Part shown: positions 3,767-12,662 of the stretch, piece by piece
How positions within the stretch are numbered: the stretch's first letter is position 1
How the letters are laid out: each line of letters begins with the position of its first letter
The notes under the pieces: generated by a model
What the model was told of the DNA's origin: nothing
The model's input: only the letters and a program-made list of their open reading frames with translations
Database searches by the model: none
Source: a virus
Length of the DNA: 25,958 nucleotides
Reading direction: 5' to 3' (one strand)
IMG/VR virus record: IMGVR_UViG_3300047472_000254
Span: 1 to 25,958 of that record
Made by a program: the position numbers and the translations under genes

Positions 3767-4843
3767 ATGAGTAAGTTTGAGTTTTTAGAAGAGGTAGTTG
3801 GTTTTCATCAAAACGGTGTCAAGTGCCACCCATATAAAGGTCTTCGCGGCCCAAAGAAAGGAAAATTCAGTTACACCCTTAAAACTGATGACAACACAGA
3901 TTTCCAGGCAGCCACGGCCTCAGAGCTGATAAAAATGATAGAAGAGGGGGCCTTTGACACAAAAGGTAGAATCAGGATGCTTCCGTTGGATGCCCAATAC
4001 TCAAAATACAATAGTGCCTTAAGCGTGGTCTCGTACAGTGGTCAGAATTTACCCTTGGCCCTAAAGTCGGAGCGAGGGGGAGCTGATAGCGATTTGGACG
4101 CGTCCAACGCTAAGCAACTCAAAGCTTCTACGGGTAGGAAAAAATTTGAGAAAACCGAAGTCCGTTTGCCAGCGGAACTATTGCGAAAAGTTACTTCTGA
4201 GTACATTTGGGAAGCGGTGCAAATCCTACTTCAAGGTACTCATGCTGATGGATATAGACCATCGACTGACTATGACTTGTTGGCCGATGACGGTGTGAGG
4301 TTAGCGCCAAAGCAAGTGTTTGGCCTTGCAGCAACAGCTGCGCTAGGAAAGGACATTAAGCCAGTCCACTTCACCGGTGGTGTGGGTACCGTCTGCTTTG
4401 AACTGCTGGAGGCGGCAGGCTACAAGATTGTTCCAAAAGATCAGCAGGTTGAGTCGGTCGAAATACCCACTGACACTGAGGAGAGAGAGTGGGCAGAGGG
4501 CCAGGTCAAGCTGGTGTATCACCTGAAACGCGAACGCTCACCAGGCCTATCTAAAGCCAAGAAGGCTTCATTCATCAAAAAACATGGCCGGCTTTTCTGC
4601 GAAGAGTGCAAAACAGATCCTATCGAGGCCTACGGTGATTTTGGTACGGCCTGTATCGAAGTCCATCATGAAGCCGTCCAGGTCGCCGATATGGGCGATG
4701 AGCACAAGACCACCCTCGACCAACTGCGTTGTCTATGTGCGAACTGTCACCGCATAGTACATCACAGGCTGAAGTTGCGATTACTTCATTCGGCAGTGGA
4801 TAGCCAGAATCAAGGCGTGCCTGTATCGGAGGCAGTGGCGTGA
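3767..4843 (+). CDS. McrA-like HNH endonuclease (putative type IV restriction or exclusion protein)
   Basis: A multidomain protein of 358 residues. Residues 1-100 are an unrecognised N-terminal domain. Residues ~145-222 (RPSTDYDLL...VRLAPKQVFGLA...HFTGGVGT...LLEAAGYKIV) resemble the N-terminal head domain of ScoMcrA-type HNH enzymes. Residues 274-333 are an HNH nuclease: C278-x2-C281, E298-V-H300-H301, C324-x2-C327 and H332-H333, i.e. a zinc-held beta-beta-alpha-metal fold. McrA-family enzymes cut modified foreign DNA, so the likely role is exclusion of other phages; this is inferred. The gene opposes its phage neighbours, is less GC-rich than they are, has a GGGGGAGG ribosome site, and its 3' end overlaps the convergent next gene by 34 bp. 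It looks like a cargo (moron) gene. Confidence 0.8.
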   Translation: MSKFEFLEEVVGFHQNGVKCHPYKGLRGPKKGKFSYTLKTDDNTDFQAATASELIKMIEEGAFDTKGRIRMLPLDAQYSKYNSALSVVSYSGQNLPLALKSERGGADSDLDASNAKQLKASTGRKKFEKTEVRLPAELLRKVTSEYIWEAVQILLQGTHADGYRPSTDYDLLADDGVRLAPKQVFGLAATAALGKDIKPVHFTGGVGTVCFELLEAAGYKIVPKDQQVESVEIPTDTEEREWAEGQVKLVYHLKRERSPGLSKAKKASFIKKHGRLFCEECKTDPIEAYGDFGTACIEVHHEAVQVADMGDEHKTTLDQLRCLCANCHRIVHHRLKLRLLHSAVDSQNQGVPVSEAVA

Positions 4844-5601
4844 TAGTCAGCCTCCGCCATCTCGCAGAAGAATGAGCAGGCCGGGATCTTCTCGTTACGG
4901 CGTACTGGTCCCTCGCTCAGCTCTCGCAGTGAGAAGCGGATATTTGTAGTTCGGTTCCGAAACAGATAGGAGCCTTCGCCCAATTCATCCTGGATTATGC
5001 ATAGGGCTTCGAACTGCTTCGGGAAGTCTTCGCGGATCGCCCGGAAGTAACCTTCGCCGCCCTTCACGCAACCGATGCAGTTTGCATTTTCGTAGCCCAT
5101 GCGGTACATCAACGGCAGTTCAATGCCTGCGCGCTGGATCATCGCCTTGCAATCCTCTTTGCCCAGGCCGCGCTCGATCAATGGAGCAATCACTGGGCGA
5201 TCGGGGTTTCGCTCGCGGAAGTCCTCCAGTCTGTCAGCTTCCTCGGCGGTGTATCCGAATACCATCACGTCTCCGGGCTCTTTCCAGGTATCGAGTAAAC
5301 GGCGCTTCAGCAATTTTGTGCATGGCGCTCCGTTACGTCCCTTCATGAATCGCTCACGTCGGAACACCTGGATGATGTCGGCGCCGTACTTTTCATCCCG
5401 CAACTGTACAACTTCCTGCCCGAACCACGCCTGGCAGTCCATCAGGAATCGGCGGTTGTCCTCGTGCTCGTTGGCCAGGAACGCATTGATGATCTGAACA
5501 TCGTGCGTCGTGCCGTACTGTGCCAAGGCCAACTTGGTAGCCACCGCCGAGGCGGCACCGCAGCTGAATTGGCATACGATTCGCGGTTGTTGTGCGGACA
5601 T
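4810..5601 (-). CDS. PP-loop ATPase of the PAPS reductase family
   Basis: A protein of 263 residues from the adenine-nucleotide alpha-hydrolase superfamily. The PP-loop appears as FSCGAASA (residues 12-19), with a Cys where many members have Gly. Other conserved features are FGYTAEEADR (115-124) and cysteines at C94 (APCTK), C175-x2-C178 (CIGC) and C242-x3-C246, which could hold an Fe-S cluster or carry sulfur. Members activate substrates by adenylation or move sulfur (PAPS reductase, DndC, TtuA/TtcA-like enzymes). Phages often carry such genes and the substrate is generally unknown. The start has GAGG 7 bases upstream. The gene follows the leftward phage orientation, unlike the HNH gene it overlaps tail to tail. 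A DNA- or tRNA-modifying role is possible but unproven. Confidence 0.8.
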   Translation of the reverse strand: MSAQQPRIVCQFSCGAASAVATKLALAQYGTTHDVQIINAFLANEHEDNRRFLMDCQAWFGQEVVQLRDEKYGADIIQVFRRERFMKGRNGAPCTKLLKRRLLDTWKEPGDVMVFGYTAEEADRLEDFRERNPDRPVIAPLIERGLGKEDCKAMIQRAGIELPLMYRMGYENANCIGCVKGGEGYFRAIREDFPKQFEALCIIQDELGEGSYLFRNRTTNIRFSLRELSEGPVRRNEKIPACSFFCEMAEADYHATASDTGTP

Positions 5602-8441: not shown

Positions 8442-9116
8442 TCAGATGTGAGTAATCGATAGATCGCTGATGATGCAGATCGAGGCGTCTTCAGGATCGG
8501 TCGTTTCTGAGTAATCGATCTGGTTGTAAACGCCGCCGTGGAAGGCGAGCGTTTTCGTGTCCCATGTGCTGTCGAGACGCATGATGGCTGAAGTAGATTT
8601 GACGCCGTTGCAGCTCGCCGATACTGAAACGGCGCCGGTTGAATTCGCGTGGATATTGATTTTGAAGAGAGCACCCAGCGGCACGTTTTCCAGCACCGTC
8701 GAGTTAACTGGATCGTCTTGCAGGTAGCTGGAGCGGAACCCCATGGTGATTTTTCCCTTGTTCCAAAACACCTTCACCGGAGGGCGCTCGGAGCCCTGCA
8801 CATGAATCTGAGCGATCACCACTTTCTGCAGCGAGTTGACTTTCGTCAGTCGCATCTCTTGTCTGTTCCAGTGATCGGCCGCACTGGAGAACGGCCAGTA
8901 ACCGGGTTCCTTCCACTCGCAGCGCGTGCGTTTCGTGCTCTTGCTTGAGGCACCGAGGGTTGGCGCGGTCATTTGAAGCGAGCCGTCGGGAAGCATTGAT
9001 ACGACGTCAGGGCATTCGATCAGTGCTCGCCACCCGATCAGTTCCAGGGCGATCGGATTGGTCTCGGAAATTGGAACCGGGGTGGCGATGGTGTAGCTGC
9101 TGATATCTACAGTCAT
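8442..9116 (-). CDS. Polysaccharide lyase family 7 (alginate-lyase-like) protein
   Basis: A protein of 224 residues that matches the PL7 alginate lyase fold, a single beta-jelly-roll domain, across its length. The three family signatures are present: RCEWKE with R65, QIH with Q103 and H105, and GGVYNQ with Y197. These correspond to the residues that neutralise the uronate carboxylate and do the beta-elimination. PL7 enzymes usually cleave alginate, an exopolysaccharide of Pseudomonas. No signal peptide is present, so it would stay in the cytoplasm and be released by lysis. It sits in the leftward operon between two small phage genes and ahead of a terminator. This is odd cargo for an early region. 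It might also act on another glycan. Confidence 0.85.
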   Translation of the reverse strand: MTVDISSYTIATPVPISETNPIALELIGWRALIECPDVVSMLPDGSLQMTAPTLGASSKSTKRTRCEWKEPGYWPFSSAADHWNRQEMRLTKVNSLQKVVIAQIHVQGSERPPVKVFWNKGKITMGFRSSYLQDDPVNSTVLENVPLGALFKINIHANSTGAVSVSASCNGVKSTSAIMRLDSTWDTKTLAFHGGVYNQIDYSETTDPEDASICIISDLSITHI

Positions 9117-10033: not shown

Positions 10034-10062
10034 AAATTAACCGGCGGTTTCTCCATCGTCAA
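10034..10062 (-). promoter_or_regulatory. PL, leftward early promoter
   Basis: On the minus strand TTGACG (10062-10057) and TAATTT (10039-10034) are separated by 17 bases. The -35 overlaps operator OL2 and the -10 overlaps OL1, so a repressor on either site would block it. The start would fall near 10027, about 245 bases before the LuxR-HTH gene. Confidence 0.7.
10037..10051. promoter_or_regulatory. Operator OL1
   Basis: TTAACC-GGC-GGTTTC: the left half is identical to the perfect operator OR3 at 12368, the right half differs at two places. Its centre is 24 bp from OL2, the spacing seen at OR. It covers the -10 of PL. Confidence 0.75.
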
Positions 10063-10075
10063 TACCGGCGGTTAA
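10061..10075. promoter_or_regulatory. Operator OL2
   Basis: AATACC-GGC-GGTTAA: the right half is the consensus. It overlaps the PL -35 by two bases. It is of the same type as the three operators between cI and cro, so CI and Cro should bind it. Confidence 0.75.
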
Positions 10076-10113: not shown

Positions 10114-10129
10114 CTGTATGCATGTACAG
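10114..10129. promoter_or_regulatory. LexA (SOS) box
   Basis: CTGTATGCATGTACAG fits CTG-N10-CAG with the expected T/A-rich interior (flanks TA and CTA). It ends 17 bases before the DUF1654 start codon, a place where LexA would block transcription. I could not assign a firm -35/-10 pair around it. Confidence 0.75.
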
Positions 10130-10146
10130 CTATTAGGGAGAGAGCT

Positions 10147-10455
10147 ATGGGCAAGCCGAACAAGAAGAATCAGGATAAAAAAGTTGAAGTGACTGGAATG
10201 GAGCGACTAGGTCTTCGAGTTTCGGAAATGATCAATCATCCCGTTGCACAGATTCAGCGCTGGGTGACGATTCATCGCCTAGACACGGACGGTGACCGGG
10301 AATGGGAGGAGGTGTTGGGCTTATTGTCCGAGACGGACGGCATAGACATGACATTCAACGACGATGAGTCGGTGACGCTGAGGTGGGAGGCGAGTGACGA
10401 AGAGGATCGGCCAGTGGAAGTGCTGGAACCTGTCGAGGAGGTCGCGCCTTTCTGA
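10147..10455 (+). CDS. DUF1654 protein, probably SOS-controlled
   Basis: A small acidic protein of 102 residues with a lysine-rich N-terminus (residues 3-14). Residues ~18-80 (MERLGLRVSEMINHPVAQIQRWVTIHRL...WEEVLGLLSETDGIDMTFNDDESVTLRW) match the DUF1654 family, known mainly from Pseudomonas and its phages, with no established function. GGGAGAG stands 7 bases before the ATG. The LexA box immediately upstream and the rightward orientation, against both neighbours, make it an independent damage-induced unit between the PL operators and the lysogenic genes. By analogy with LexA-controlled antirepressors such as those of Gifsy prophages, it could inactivate CI; this is only a hypothesis. Confidence 0.88.
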   Translation: MGKPNKKNQDKKVEVTGMERLGLRVSEMINHPVAQIQRWVTIHRLDTDGDREWEEVLGLLSETDGIDMTFNDDESVTLRWEASDEEDRPVEVLEPVEEVAPF

Positions 10456-10462
10456 TAAGTAT

Positions 10463-10488
10463 AAAAAAGCCCGCTCAACGGCGGGCTT
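10463..10488 (-). terminator. Rho-independent terminator after the cI transcript
   Basis: The stem AAGCCCGC/GCGGGCTT with a six-base loop is followed on the minus strand by six Ts. It ends the lysogenic transcript (cI and the gene at 10492) before it can run into DUF1654, and may also weakly end DUF1654 from the other side. Confidence 0.8.
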
Positions 10489-10491
10489 AGC

Positions 10492-11385
10492 TTAGGCTTC
10501 GGTGATAAAGAGCCTGTGCAGTTCGCCGTCTTTAAACACTGGTCGTGCTCTCACCTTTAATGGTTCGTGGCGATTAAGTGCTTGGGTGTAGGGGTTGTTT
10601 GGCTGCGTAAGAGCAACATCGTTAATCTTTCCATGATATGTGCCAGCGTATCCTTCGATCTCGACTCGGCATACGCCGCTGTCTACGCTCAGAGAATAAA
10701 TTCTAGTCACCACGTAGTCACCCGGCTCTCCAACCACGACGTCACCGTCTGAACGGATTGCAAGTGCTTCAGGCTCGGAAATCACCACAGGATGTTCGGA
10801 GTCGGAAAATTGCGTGATCTGGTTACAGCTTTTTCCGACCGGAGCGAGCGCTGCTCTCATTGGCGATTTCGCCGCCTCGATCAGCCCAGGAATCGAAATC
10901 ATCATTTTCTCGTGAAGACCGGCGAGGTTGTCATTTGCCTTGATCAGCCCATTGGCCAAAAGTGTATTCAGCTCTGAAGACGACTTCGCCTGTTCCTTGA
11001 TGACGTCGACCAATTCTTTCACGTTAGATGTCCCCGACAGCGCTTCTTTGATGTGTCCCATCACCTTCGCCACCAGCCAGTCGAAAGCCTTTTTGTAGAC
11101 GTCGTTAAATGCTGGGTATTGATGAGTAAGCGCTGTAAGTATAACCAGTGTTGAGTCGAACGAACCCTCCCTAGGCGGTGCCGAAAAGCACCGTAGGTCA
11201 GATTGTTTTTTTCCAGACAGGACTTCACCATGAAGACAATAATGGCTGACTAGCCGATACAGGCGCCCAGACCCGTCAACTGATCGAGCGTACTGAGCAG
11301 AGTCAAGTAGATGCCTGTCTGCATCTCCTCCGTCGTACTTTACGTCCATGTGGCCGGCTACACCGGTCATCGAATCCCATTTCAT
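10492..11385 (-). CDS. Unknown protein downstream of the repressor gene
   Basis: A protein of 297 residues, soluble, mixed alpha/beta. The start resembles a family found next to many prophage repressors (KYDGGDADRHLLD...YARSVDGSGRLYRLVSHYCLHGEV, residues 16-54); I think it is the one named DUF7946, but I am not certain. The middle is helical (residues ~80-170) and the C-terminal third is rich in strands (DGDVVVGEPGDYVVTRIYSL...RVEIEGYAG). AAGGA lies 6-7 bases upstream of the ATG. It follows cI on the same strand with an 85-base gap and one shared terminator, so it should be expressed in the lysogen. Genes in this place often give superinfection exclusion or immunity, which is inference here. 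Confidence 0.75.
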   Translation of the reverse strand: MKWDSMTGVAGHMDVKYDGGDADRHLLDSAQYARSVDGSGRLYRLVSHYCLHGEVLSGKKQSDLRCFSAPPREGSFDSTLVILTALTHQYPAFNDVYKKAFDWLVAKVMGHIKEALSGTSNVKELVDVIKEQAKSSSELNTLLANGLIKANDNLAGLHEKMMISIPGLIEAAKSPMRAALAPVGKSCNQITQFSDSEHPVVISEPEALAIRSDGDVVVGEPGDYVVTRIYSLSVDSGVCRVEIEGYAGTYHGKINDVALTQPNNPYTQALNRHEPLKVRARPVFKDGELHRLFITEA

Positions 11386-11470
11386 GATTTCTTCCTTGAG
11401 GCCGGCGGTTCGATGGCCCGCGAGTATTGGAGATTAGCTTGGGCAACGGTTCGGTCAGATGTCGGCTTCG

Positions 11471-12358
11471 CTACACAAGATGGGCGTTCCACACCAGCAG
11501 CACCCGAGCCTGGATGAACGTCATATCTCGACGAATCATCCGGTCCTTGTGCTTGGTATTATCGGAAATCATCTCGAAATGATCCTCATCAGCAACCTGA
11601 AGACGTTTGATGTAGATGTGGTCATCCCATGAGAAAAGGTAGATCCCATCCCCAGCAAACTCGCGAATGCTCACGTCAACAATCAGGGGGTCTCGATGTT
11701 TGATGGTCGGCTCCATGGATTGACCCCAGCCGGTGACCATCTTCAAGTGGAAATGCTCTTCGAAGTCTACGCCCAGCTCACGTAGGTGCTTGGGGCTCAC
11801 CCTGACGTCCTGAAACATTTCGGGGTAATCGTGTGCTATTTGTCCGCCGCCCATCGCTGCGCGGATGTCGTAGTGCGCAATCCAAACTTCATCACCTACC
11901 AGACCAGGACGCGAGAAATCGCCAGTTATGACGTTCCCTGTATCACCCTTCCCGTTGTCGGTTTCTTCGGCGACGGCTAATAGTCGCCGGCGAGCATGAT
12001 CCGGAAGACTTTTACCCTGTTTCGCCAACATCTGACGAACCATTTCAGCTGCCGATGTCACGTTTCCGGAAGCTTCTGTGTAGTCAACTGCGGTCGTTAG
12101 GCCGCTGATCTCTTGAGCTAATCGGTTACTGAACTTATCGACAGGAACGCCCAGCACCCGCGAAAGCACTGTGGCAAATTTCGCGTTCAAGGGATTGGTG
12201 CCATTCAAATACATCGCCACAGCGGCAGCAGAAATATCCGCCGCTTCCGCGAGGCTCGCCTGGGTGAGACCCAGAGTATTTTTCTTCGACACGAATAGCG
12301 CCTTGGCGGCGTCGCATTCAGCCTTCAGTTCTGGGGATAGCTCTTTCTTTTTCGTCAT
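11471..12358 (-). CDS. cI: CI-type repressor, HTH plus S24 peptidase-like domain
   Basis: The lysogeny repressor, 295 residues. The N-terminal XRE helix-turn-helix (residues ~28-72, LTQASLAEAADISAAAVAMYLNGTNPLN) should bind the five operators. A linker (90-160) leads to a LexA/CI-like C-terminal domain with the Ser-Lys pair S214 (GQSMEPT) and K251 (YIKRLQ). Where cleavable repressors have Ala-Gly, the linker has M169-G170 (RAAMGGG), so self-cleavage is doubtful. The ATG at 12358 lies only about 10 bases from the PRM -10 and has no Shine-Dalgarno, so the mRNA is probably leaderless, as for lambda cI. The gene is divergent from cro across OR. Confidence 0.93.
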   Translation of the reverse strand: MTKKKELSPELKAECDAAKALFVSKKNTLGLTQASLAEAADISAAAVAMYLNGTNPLNAKFATVLSRVLGVPVDKFSNRLAQEISGLTTAVDYTEASGNVTSAAEMVRQMLAKQGKSLPDHARRRLLAVAEETDNGKGDTGNVITGDFSRPGLVGDEVWIAHYDIRAAMGGGQIAHDYPEMFQDVRVSPKHLRELGVDFEEHFHLKMVTGWGQSMEPTIKHRDPLIVDVSIREFAGDGIYLFSWDDHIYIKRLQVADEDHFEMISDNTKHKDRMIRRDMTFIQARVLLVWNAHLV

Positions 12359-12366
12359 TCGTGAAA

Positions 12367-12396
12367 TTTAACCGTTGGTTAATTTATTTGCGTCAA
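12367..12396 (-). promoter_or_regulatory. PRM, repressor maintenance promoter
   Basis: On the minus strand TTGACG (12396-12391) and GTTAAA (12372-12367) lie 18 bases apart. The -35 overlaps OR2 and the -10 overlaps OR3. A start near 12360 puts the transcript within about two bases of the cI ATG. Confidence 0.6.
12368..12382. promoter_or_regulatory. Operator OR3
   Basis: TTAACC-GTT-GGTTAA, a perfect 6-3-6 palindrome and the best copy in the window. It covers the PRM -10, so its occupation would shut off cI. In lambda this is the Cro-preferred site. Confidence 0.8.
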
Positions 12397-12407
12397 CCGG
12401 CGGTATT
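12393..12407. promoter_or_regulatory. Operator OR2
   Basis: TCAACC-GGC-GGTATT: one mismatch in the left half and two in the right. It is centred 25 bp from OR3 and 24 bp from OR1. It covers the PRM -35 and touches the PR -35. Confidence 0.75.
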
Positions 12408-12434
12408 GCCTAAAAACTAACCGGCGGTTAATAT
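12406..12434 (+). promoter_or_regulatory. PR, rightward early promoter
   Basis: TTGCCT (12406-12411) and TAATAT (12429-12434) are separated by 17 bases. The -10 overlaps OR1 and the -35 overlaps the edge of OR2. The start would be near 12441, 27 bases before cro. Confidence 0.7.
12417..12431. promoter_or_regulatory. Operator OR1
   Basis: CTAACC-GGC-GGTTAA, one base from the perfect palindrome. It overlaps the PR -10, so repressor here would block cro and the replication genes. Confidence 0.8.
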
Positions 12435-12467: not shown

Positions 12468-12662
12468 ATGAAGAAGACGCCATTGCCCAAACTGGTAGAG
12501 AAGATTGGCCAAGCCGCCGTTGCCAAGGCGCTAGGTGTCAGTTCGCCCGCTATCTCAAAAGCACTTCGCGCAGAGCGGGACATTCAGGTTCTAGAACACG
12601 AAGACGGAACCTACACCGCTGAGGAAATCAGACCCTTCCCATCACAAAACACCGCAGCGTGA
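12468..12662 (+). CDS. cro: Cro-type repressor
   Basis: A protein of 64 residues, nearly all of it a helix-turn-helix (residues ~7-38, LPKLVEKIGQAAVAKALGVSSPAISKALRAER) of the lambda Cro type, with a short C-terminal strand for dimerisation. It is the first gene of the PR transcript, divergent from cI with three shared operators between, which is what identifies it as Cro. The ribosome site is weak (only AGG about 10 bases upstream), so expression may be low. It should bind OR3 first and turn off cI, and also act on OL. That preference is inferred from lambda. Confidence 0.9.
   Translation: MKKTPLPKLVEKIGQAAVAKALGVSSPAISKALRAERDIQVLEHEDGTYTAEEIRPFPSQNTAA

Follow-up and report, generated by a model that had tools for sequence, protein, structure and literature searches.

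A LexA-controlled DUF1654 gene as a candidate prophage inducer coupled to the S24 half of the CI repressor in Pseudomonas phages

Results

The window, i.e. the whole stretch of DNA analysed here (a 25,958-base IMG/VR virus record), carries a DUF1654 gene on the plus strand (10147..10455), encoding a 102-aa protein that matches PF07867 with an E-value of 8e-25 and 86.8 bits (Pfam cut-off 27). The gene is preceded by a LexA box, CTGTATGCATGTACAG (10114..10129, plus strand), which is the sole zero-mismatch match to CTGTATNNATNNACAG across the window and lies inside a TTGTAC-N16-TATTAG-like promoter. This promoter was read by eye, and a promoter scan listed none at the DUF1654 LexA box. Two operator-like repeats TTAACCGGCGGTTAA are found on the OL side (at 10037 and 10061, spanning 10037..10075), 40-75 bp to the left of the LexA box, and two more on the OR side (at 12368 and 12417, spanning 12368..12431), between cI and cro (Cro, 12468..12662, plus strand). 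A terminator-like hairpin (10467..10488) separates DUF1654 from the convergent cI-side gene, so that DUF1654 forms a single-gene unit with operator-like repeats on both flanks and a hairpin downstream. The initial annotation had described the gene as standing alone between the operators and the repressor. It is indeed alone, but a DUF7946/DUF7947 gene (10492..11385, minus strand) intervenes before cI, in a variable cargo spot. This interval, which runs from DUF1654 to the 3' end of cI (10456-11470), measures 56-4158 bp in relatives and contains mostly unrelated genes. The CI repressor itself (11471..12358, minus strand) is a 295-aa protein composed of a lambda-CI-like helix-turn-helix and an S24 domain (8e-18), with a Ser-Lys dyad (S214 and K251) and an AAMGGG loop; its S24 half corresponds to 11474..11896 (minus strand).

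Several other genes of the window were identified. To the left of the operators, an alginate lyase (PF08787, 4e-41) is encoded on the minus strand (8442-9116), and 10 of the 46 related loci have a homologue. There is also an AbiP/putAbiC-like gene that is possibly anti-phage (6295-7128), a PAPS-reductase-like gene that weakly matches SspD (4810-5601), and a second integrase-family gene (PF00589, 15115-16473) besides the integrase at 1636-2814.

The claim that a LexA box precedes DUF1654 was borne out in related phages. A CTG-N10-CAG box is present directly upstream of DUF1654 in all 80 fetched IMG/VR loci. When sites within four mismatches of the consensus were counted over 617,821 bp, 80 LexA-like boxes were found at ≤110 bp upstream of DUF1654 versus 8 elsewhere. 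This conservation and this distribution place the box beyond chance. Overall, 191 of 200 DUF1654 ORFs have an upstream LexA box, 13 isolated phages among them. In four Pseudomonas genomes, the same kind of box is found upstream of lexA1-type genes, and nothing resembling it was found at the second lexA-type loci of these genomes. A search of the window for LexA2 sites returned one match, far off and at chance level. As sequence evidence, the case for LexA control of DUF1654 is solid.

What the protein does could not be read from its family or fold. Family searches returned just PF07867 and phrog_2707 (function unknown) and no antirepressor family, leading us to reject an antirepressor assignment by homology, and in the open-access literature searched DUF1654 is mentioned by one paper, without a function. 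An AlphaFold2 model (pLDDT 75) predicts a confident alpha/beta core at residues 16-83 (blocks near 88 pLDDT) followed by an acidic disordered tail, which ends in the tip EEVAPF (codons at 10435..10452, plus strand). Foldseek comparison of this model with the PDB and viral models gave no match at E≤0.001, DinI included, and there is no sequence relative in the PDB; a known fold was therefore not supported.

A published genetic result turned out to concern this family. PP3901, a prophage gene of P. putida KT2440/mt-2, is described in a published account on strain mt-2 (PMC4595014, citing Abella 2007) as belonging to both LexA regulons (LexA1/LexA2), and the same account reports that damage-mediated induction of other prophage genes requires it. 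The four published PP3901 primers, which have no match in 399 Pseudomonas genomes, match exactly in the IMG/VR record IMGVR_UViG_637000222_000004. The promoter primer abuts the GTG start codon of an ORF of 86 aa, both qPCR primers lie inside this ORF, and the encoded protein matches PF07867 with 1.7e-32 and 111.4 bits. PP3901 is a member of the DUF1654 family. Upstream of it, a LexA2-type site, GTACAAATGTGC, begins 83 bp before the start and a LexA1-type box, CTGTCTATGCATACAG, 35 bp before it, in agreement with the reported dual control; GTACAAATGTGC was typed by what we take to be the LexA2 motif.

Like the gene in the window, PP3901 has a nearby upstream LexA box and has, inside a prophage, the cI side on one flank and the early operon on the other. 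It differs in being short, lacking the C-terminal tip, having the extra LexA2 site, lying in flipped orientation and accompanying a repressor of a different S24 type, with a Leu-Gly loop. A HicA/HicB-like pair adjoins the DUF1654 gene in this prophage (L231:2302-3301). Relatives of the PP3901-prophage repressor are mostly without DUF1654 (15 of 17 with room for it). Since PP3901 is of the short type and its own repressor's relatives mostly lack DUF1654, the reported effect may be exerted in trans or indirectly.

We next searched IMG/VR with the S24 half of the window CI alone, which yielded 80 loci at 77-99% identity. DUF1654 is present in 77 of them, and the other three end <1.5 kb beyond cI. 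In the 46 loci with full flanks, selected by similarity of the CI C-terminal domain (CTD), DUF1654 is present in 46/46, invariably encoded on the strand opposite to cI and at a distance of 56-4158 bp. Homologues of the other neighbours are found in fewer loci, between 0 and 28 of the 46: the N-terminal, DNA-binding domain (NTD) of the window CI in 11, Cro in 11, a LuxR-like gene in 10, DUF7946 in 1, and replication genes in 14 and 28. The DNA-binding halves of CI in these loci fall into 4-9 groups, depending on the cut-off. DUF1654 distances track those of the CI CTD (r 0.63) more than those of the NTD (r 0.24). Because DUF1654 is retained and follows the CTD while the DNA-binding half is swapped, these findings suggest that the partner of DUF1654 is the S24 half of CI. 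Shared descent could account for part of the coupling, given that a correlation is also seen between DUF1654 and the LuxR-like gene (0.54, 25 loci) and that CTD similarity was the basis on which the 46 loci were chosen.

This coupling bears on two other readings. One is that DUF1654 is a LexA-controlled passenger with no part in induction, linked by shared descent, CI cleaving itself at Met-Gly as usual. The preserved dyad of CI (see below) and the cargo spot between DUF1654 and cI both speak for it. Real cargo, however, is swapped out, as DUF7946 is (1/46), whereas DUF1654 never is (46/46), and the PMC4595014 account describes a family member, PP3901, as necessary for prophage gene induction; we regard the passenger reading as improbable. 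The other, which we consider very improbable, is that DUF1654 activates early phage promoters directly rather than acting on CI. The PP3901 requirement, as reported in that account, would also fit, but DUF1654 proteins have a strongly acidic composition, with a net charge of −12 on average, searches assigned them to no fold or family that binds DNA, and the coupling is to the CI CTD, not to operators or Cro.

The repressor was claimed to have an unusual linker, which holds in one respect: the cleavage loop is AAMGGG, with Met-Gly where canonical repressors have Ala-Gly. The Ser-Lys dyad is intact. Among 136 typed loci, the scissile position is Met/Leu-Gly in 132 and Ala-Gly in 4. S214 and K251 are kept in all aligned CI relatives, and in 45 of 46 repressors of the full-locus set. 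A CI rendered non-cleavable by loss of the dyad was therefore rejected, and the invariant dyad suggests that the Met-Gly loop is cleaved. With an intact dyad, CI may self-cleave unaided. No CI was found nearby in 18 of 160 DUF1654 loci, mostly explained by short flanks or long cargo, and repressor-free phages are thus not supported. In the isolated phages F116, TC7 and LESphi3, DUF1654 and its LexA box occur alongside canonical Ala-Gly repressors. Both the intact dyad and these phages count against an inducer role of DUF1654, as do the chromosomal copies described next, which have no repressor nearby.

DUF1654 is a Pseudomonas family. PF07867 is present in 102 of 119 sampled Pseudomonas genomes (about 86%), usually as one copy scoring >100 bits, and is almost absent beyond the genus: it was found in 4 genomes among the 146 that made up the order sample, one being the Pseudomonas centre, and in 1 of 185 genomes of the class sample, which is the Pseudomonas centre itself. 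The family comes in two forms, one chromosomal and short (about 80 aa, ending FWxVPKED), the other longer and carried by phages, which are split by a supported branch in a tree that is approximate given its long branches. Two phages have two divergent DUF1654 genes each, one short and one long (L088, 4668-5315, and L107, in its DUF1654 region). Instead of a repressor, the chromosomal copies examined have endA or an asparaginase gene next to them, and a LexA box accompanies most copies. In P. aeruginosa, the chromosomal DUF1654 gene may well be PA0922; the fetched chromosomal regions showed no dinB neighbour. PA0922 is a member of the LexA regulon (PMC8944484).

Most phage copies end in a tip resembling that of SSB. 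Pro-Phe is the ending of 131 of 144 distinct phage-type DUF1654 proteins, preceded by a variable tail, and positions −5 and −6 are occupied by Glu or Asp in about 90%; no other ORF of the same loci ends in PF (0/1662). Three Pseudomonas SSBs end in DFDSFDDDIPF, the host SSB tip being DDDIPF. The tip codons of DUF1654 vary synonymously, and since every Ala, Pro, Phe and stop codon occurs, selection acts on the protein. SSB binds repair proteins such as RecO through its acidic tip (PMC7913777). The SSB-like tip of most phage copies is probably one more point of contact, for repair or replication proteins that bind SSB. The tip is absent from the chromosomal copies and from those of PP3901, F116, LESphi3, TC7, phi297, P54 and D14S. 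Since PP3901 is among these, the induction role reported for it does not require the tip. Ala-Gly repressors are paired with tip-less DUF1654 in 4/4 cases, which come from few lineages, and with D14S as an exception we rejected covariation of the tip with CI type.

The chromosomal copies and the tip raise another possibility, that DUF1654 is a general Pseudomonas SOS effector acting on RecA or SSB-binding proteins, with an indirect effect on prophages via RecA activity or DNA repair, and that the SSB-like tip is a phage addition by which this machinery is steered. Its presence in 102/119 Pseudomonas genomes and near absence elsewhere, the mostly LexA-boxed chromosomal copies next to endA or asparaginase genes, and a host-like tip that is restricted to DUF1654 among the ORFs of these loci and selected as protein would all be expected. 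This reading nevertheless leaves unexplained both the tie of DUF1654 to the S24 half of CI and the effect on prophage genes reported in the PMC4595014 account for PP3901, which has no tip, and comparison of the modelled fold gave no match at E≤0.001 to DinI or any known protein. We consider it unlikely.

Discussion

On balance, we lean towards DUF1654 being a LexA-controlled prophage inducer whose target is the S24 half of CI, either as an antirepressor or as a cleavage partner. The idea that it is a LexA-regulated inducer, put forward in the initial annotation, is supported in part, through the identity of PP3901 and the coupling to the S24 half. On these two grounds, a published family member and the coupling, an inducer role is likely; that it is exerted on the S24 half we infer from sequence comparisons. 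In the scheme we propose, RecA would remove LexA and DUF1654 would be made at once, after which its target would be the S24 half of CI. There, it might block dimerisation of CI, as an antirepressor, or it might license self-cleavage of CI at its unusual Met-Gly loop. By acting on the S24 half, DUF1654 would work with any DNA-binding half of CI.

If this inducer reading is right, a large group of Pseudomonas prophages would depend on two factors for their SOS induction: an S24 repressor, and a partner under LexA control by which the conserved half of that repressor is recognised. The trans-induction of several prophages at once would thereby be explained. The reading offers a function open to experiment for a protein family present in about 86% of sampled Pseudomonas genomes and in many Pseudomonas prophages, and it links the DUF1654 family to a published genetic result, that on PP3901, in which the family went unnamed. 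Apart from this, the SSB-like tip offers a lead that is simple to test.

A more specific version of this scheme can be offered tentatively, as a possibility that we would not yet favour. DUF1654 could be the dedicated partner of S24 repressors that changed from Ala-Gly to Met/Leu-Gly and that RecA alone inactivates poorly. It would then license their cleavage, or break their dimers, via the S24 half, and the tip would bring DUF1654 to sites of RecA loading. In this way, a single inducer could serve prophages of any DNA-binding specificity, others in the same cell included.

Known systems that come close include the LexA-controlled antirepressors GfoA/GftA of the Gifsy prophages, Tum of phage 186 and AntC of N15. 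Like them, DUF1654 is small, phage-encoded and under LexA control, and its proposed function is to inactivate a repressor, but no sequence relation to any of them was found. DinI and RecX, SOS-induced modulators of RecA in other bacteria, resemble DUF1654 in being small acidic SOS proteins with chromosomal and phage copies, but no match to it was found in modelled fold or in sequence. For Gifsy, to which the initial annotation had likened the locus, the parallel is a loose one. Gifsy repressors, of about 136 aa, lack a domain for cleavage, and the immunity region does not contain the genes of their antirepressors (PMC3121763), whereas the window CI has an intact S24 domain with its Ser-Lys dyad, and DUF1654 is part of the immunity region and has no antirepressor homology. 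The window CI shares this dyad (S214, K251) with S24 repressors of the lambda CI/LexA type, but has AAMGGG instead of their Ala-Gly (or Cys-Gly) scissile bond. Finally, DUF1654 differs from SSB in having a small alpha/beta core rather than an OB fold, and no SSB family match, yet both proteins end, after a variable disordered linker, in acidic residues followed by a C-terminal Pro-Phe.
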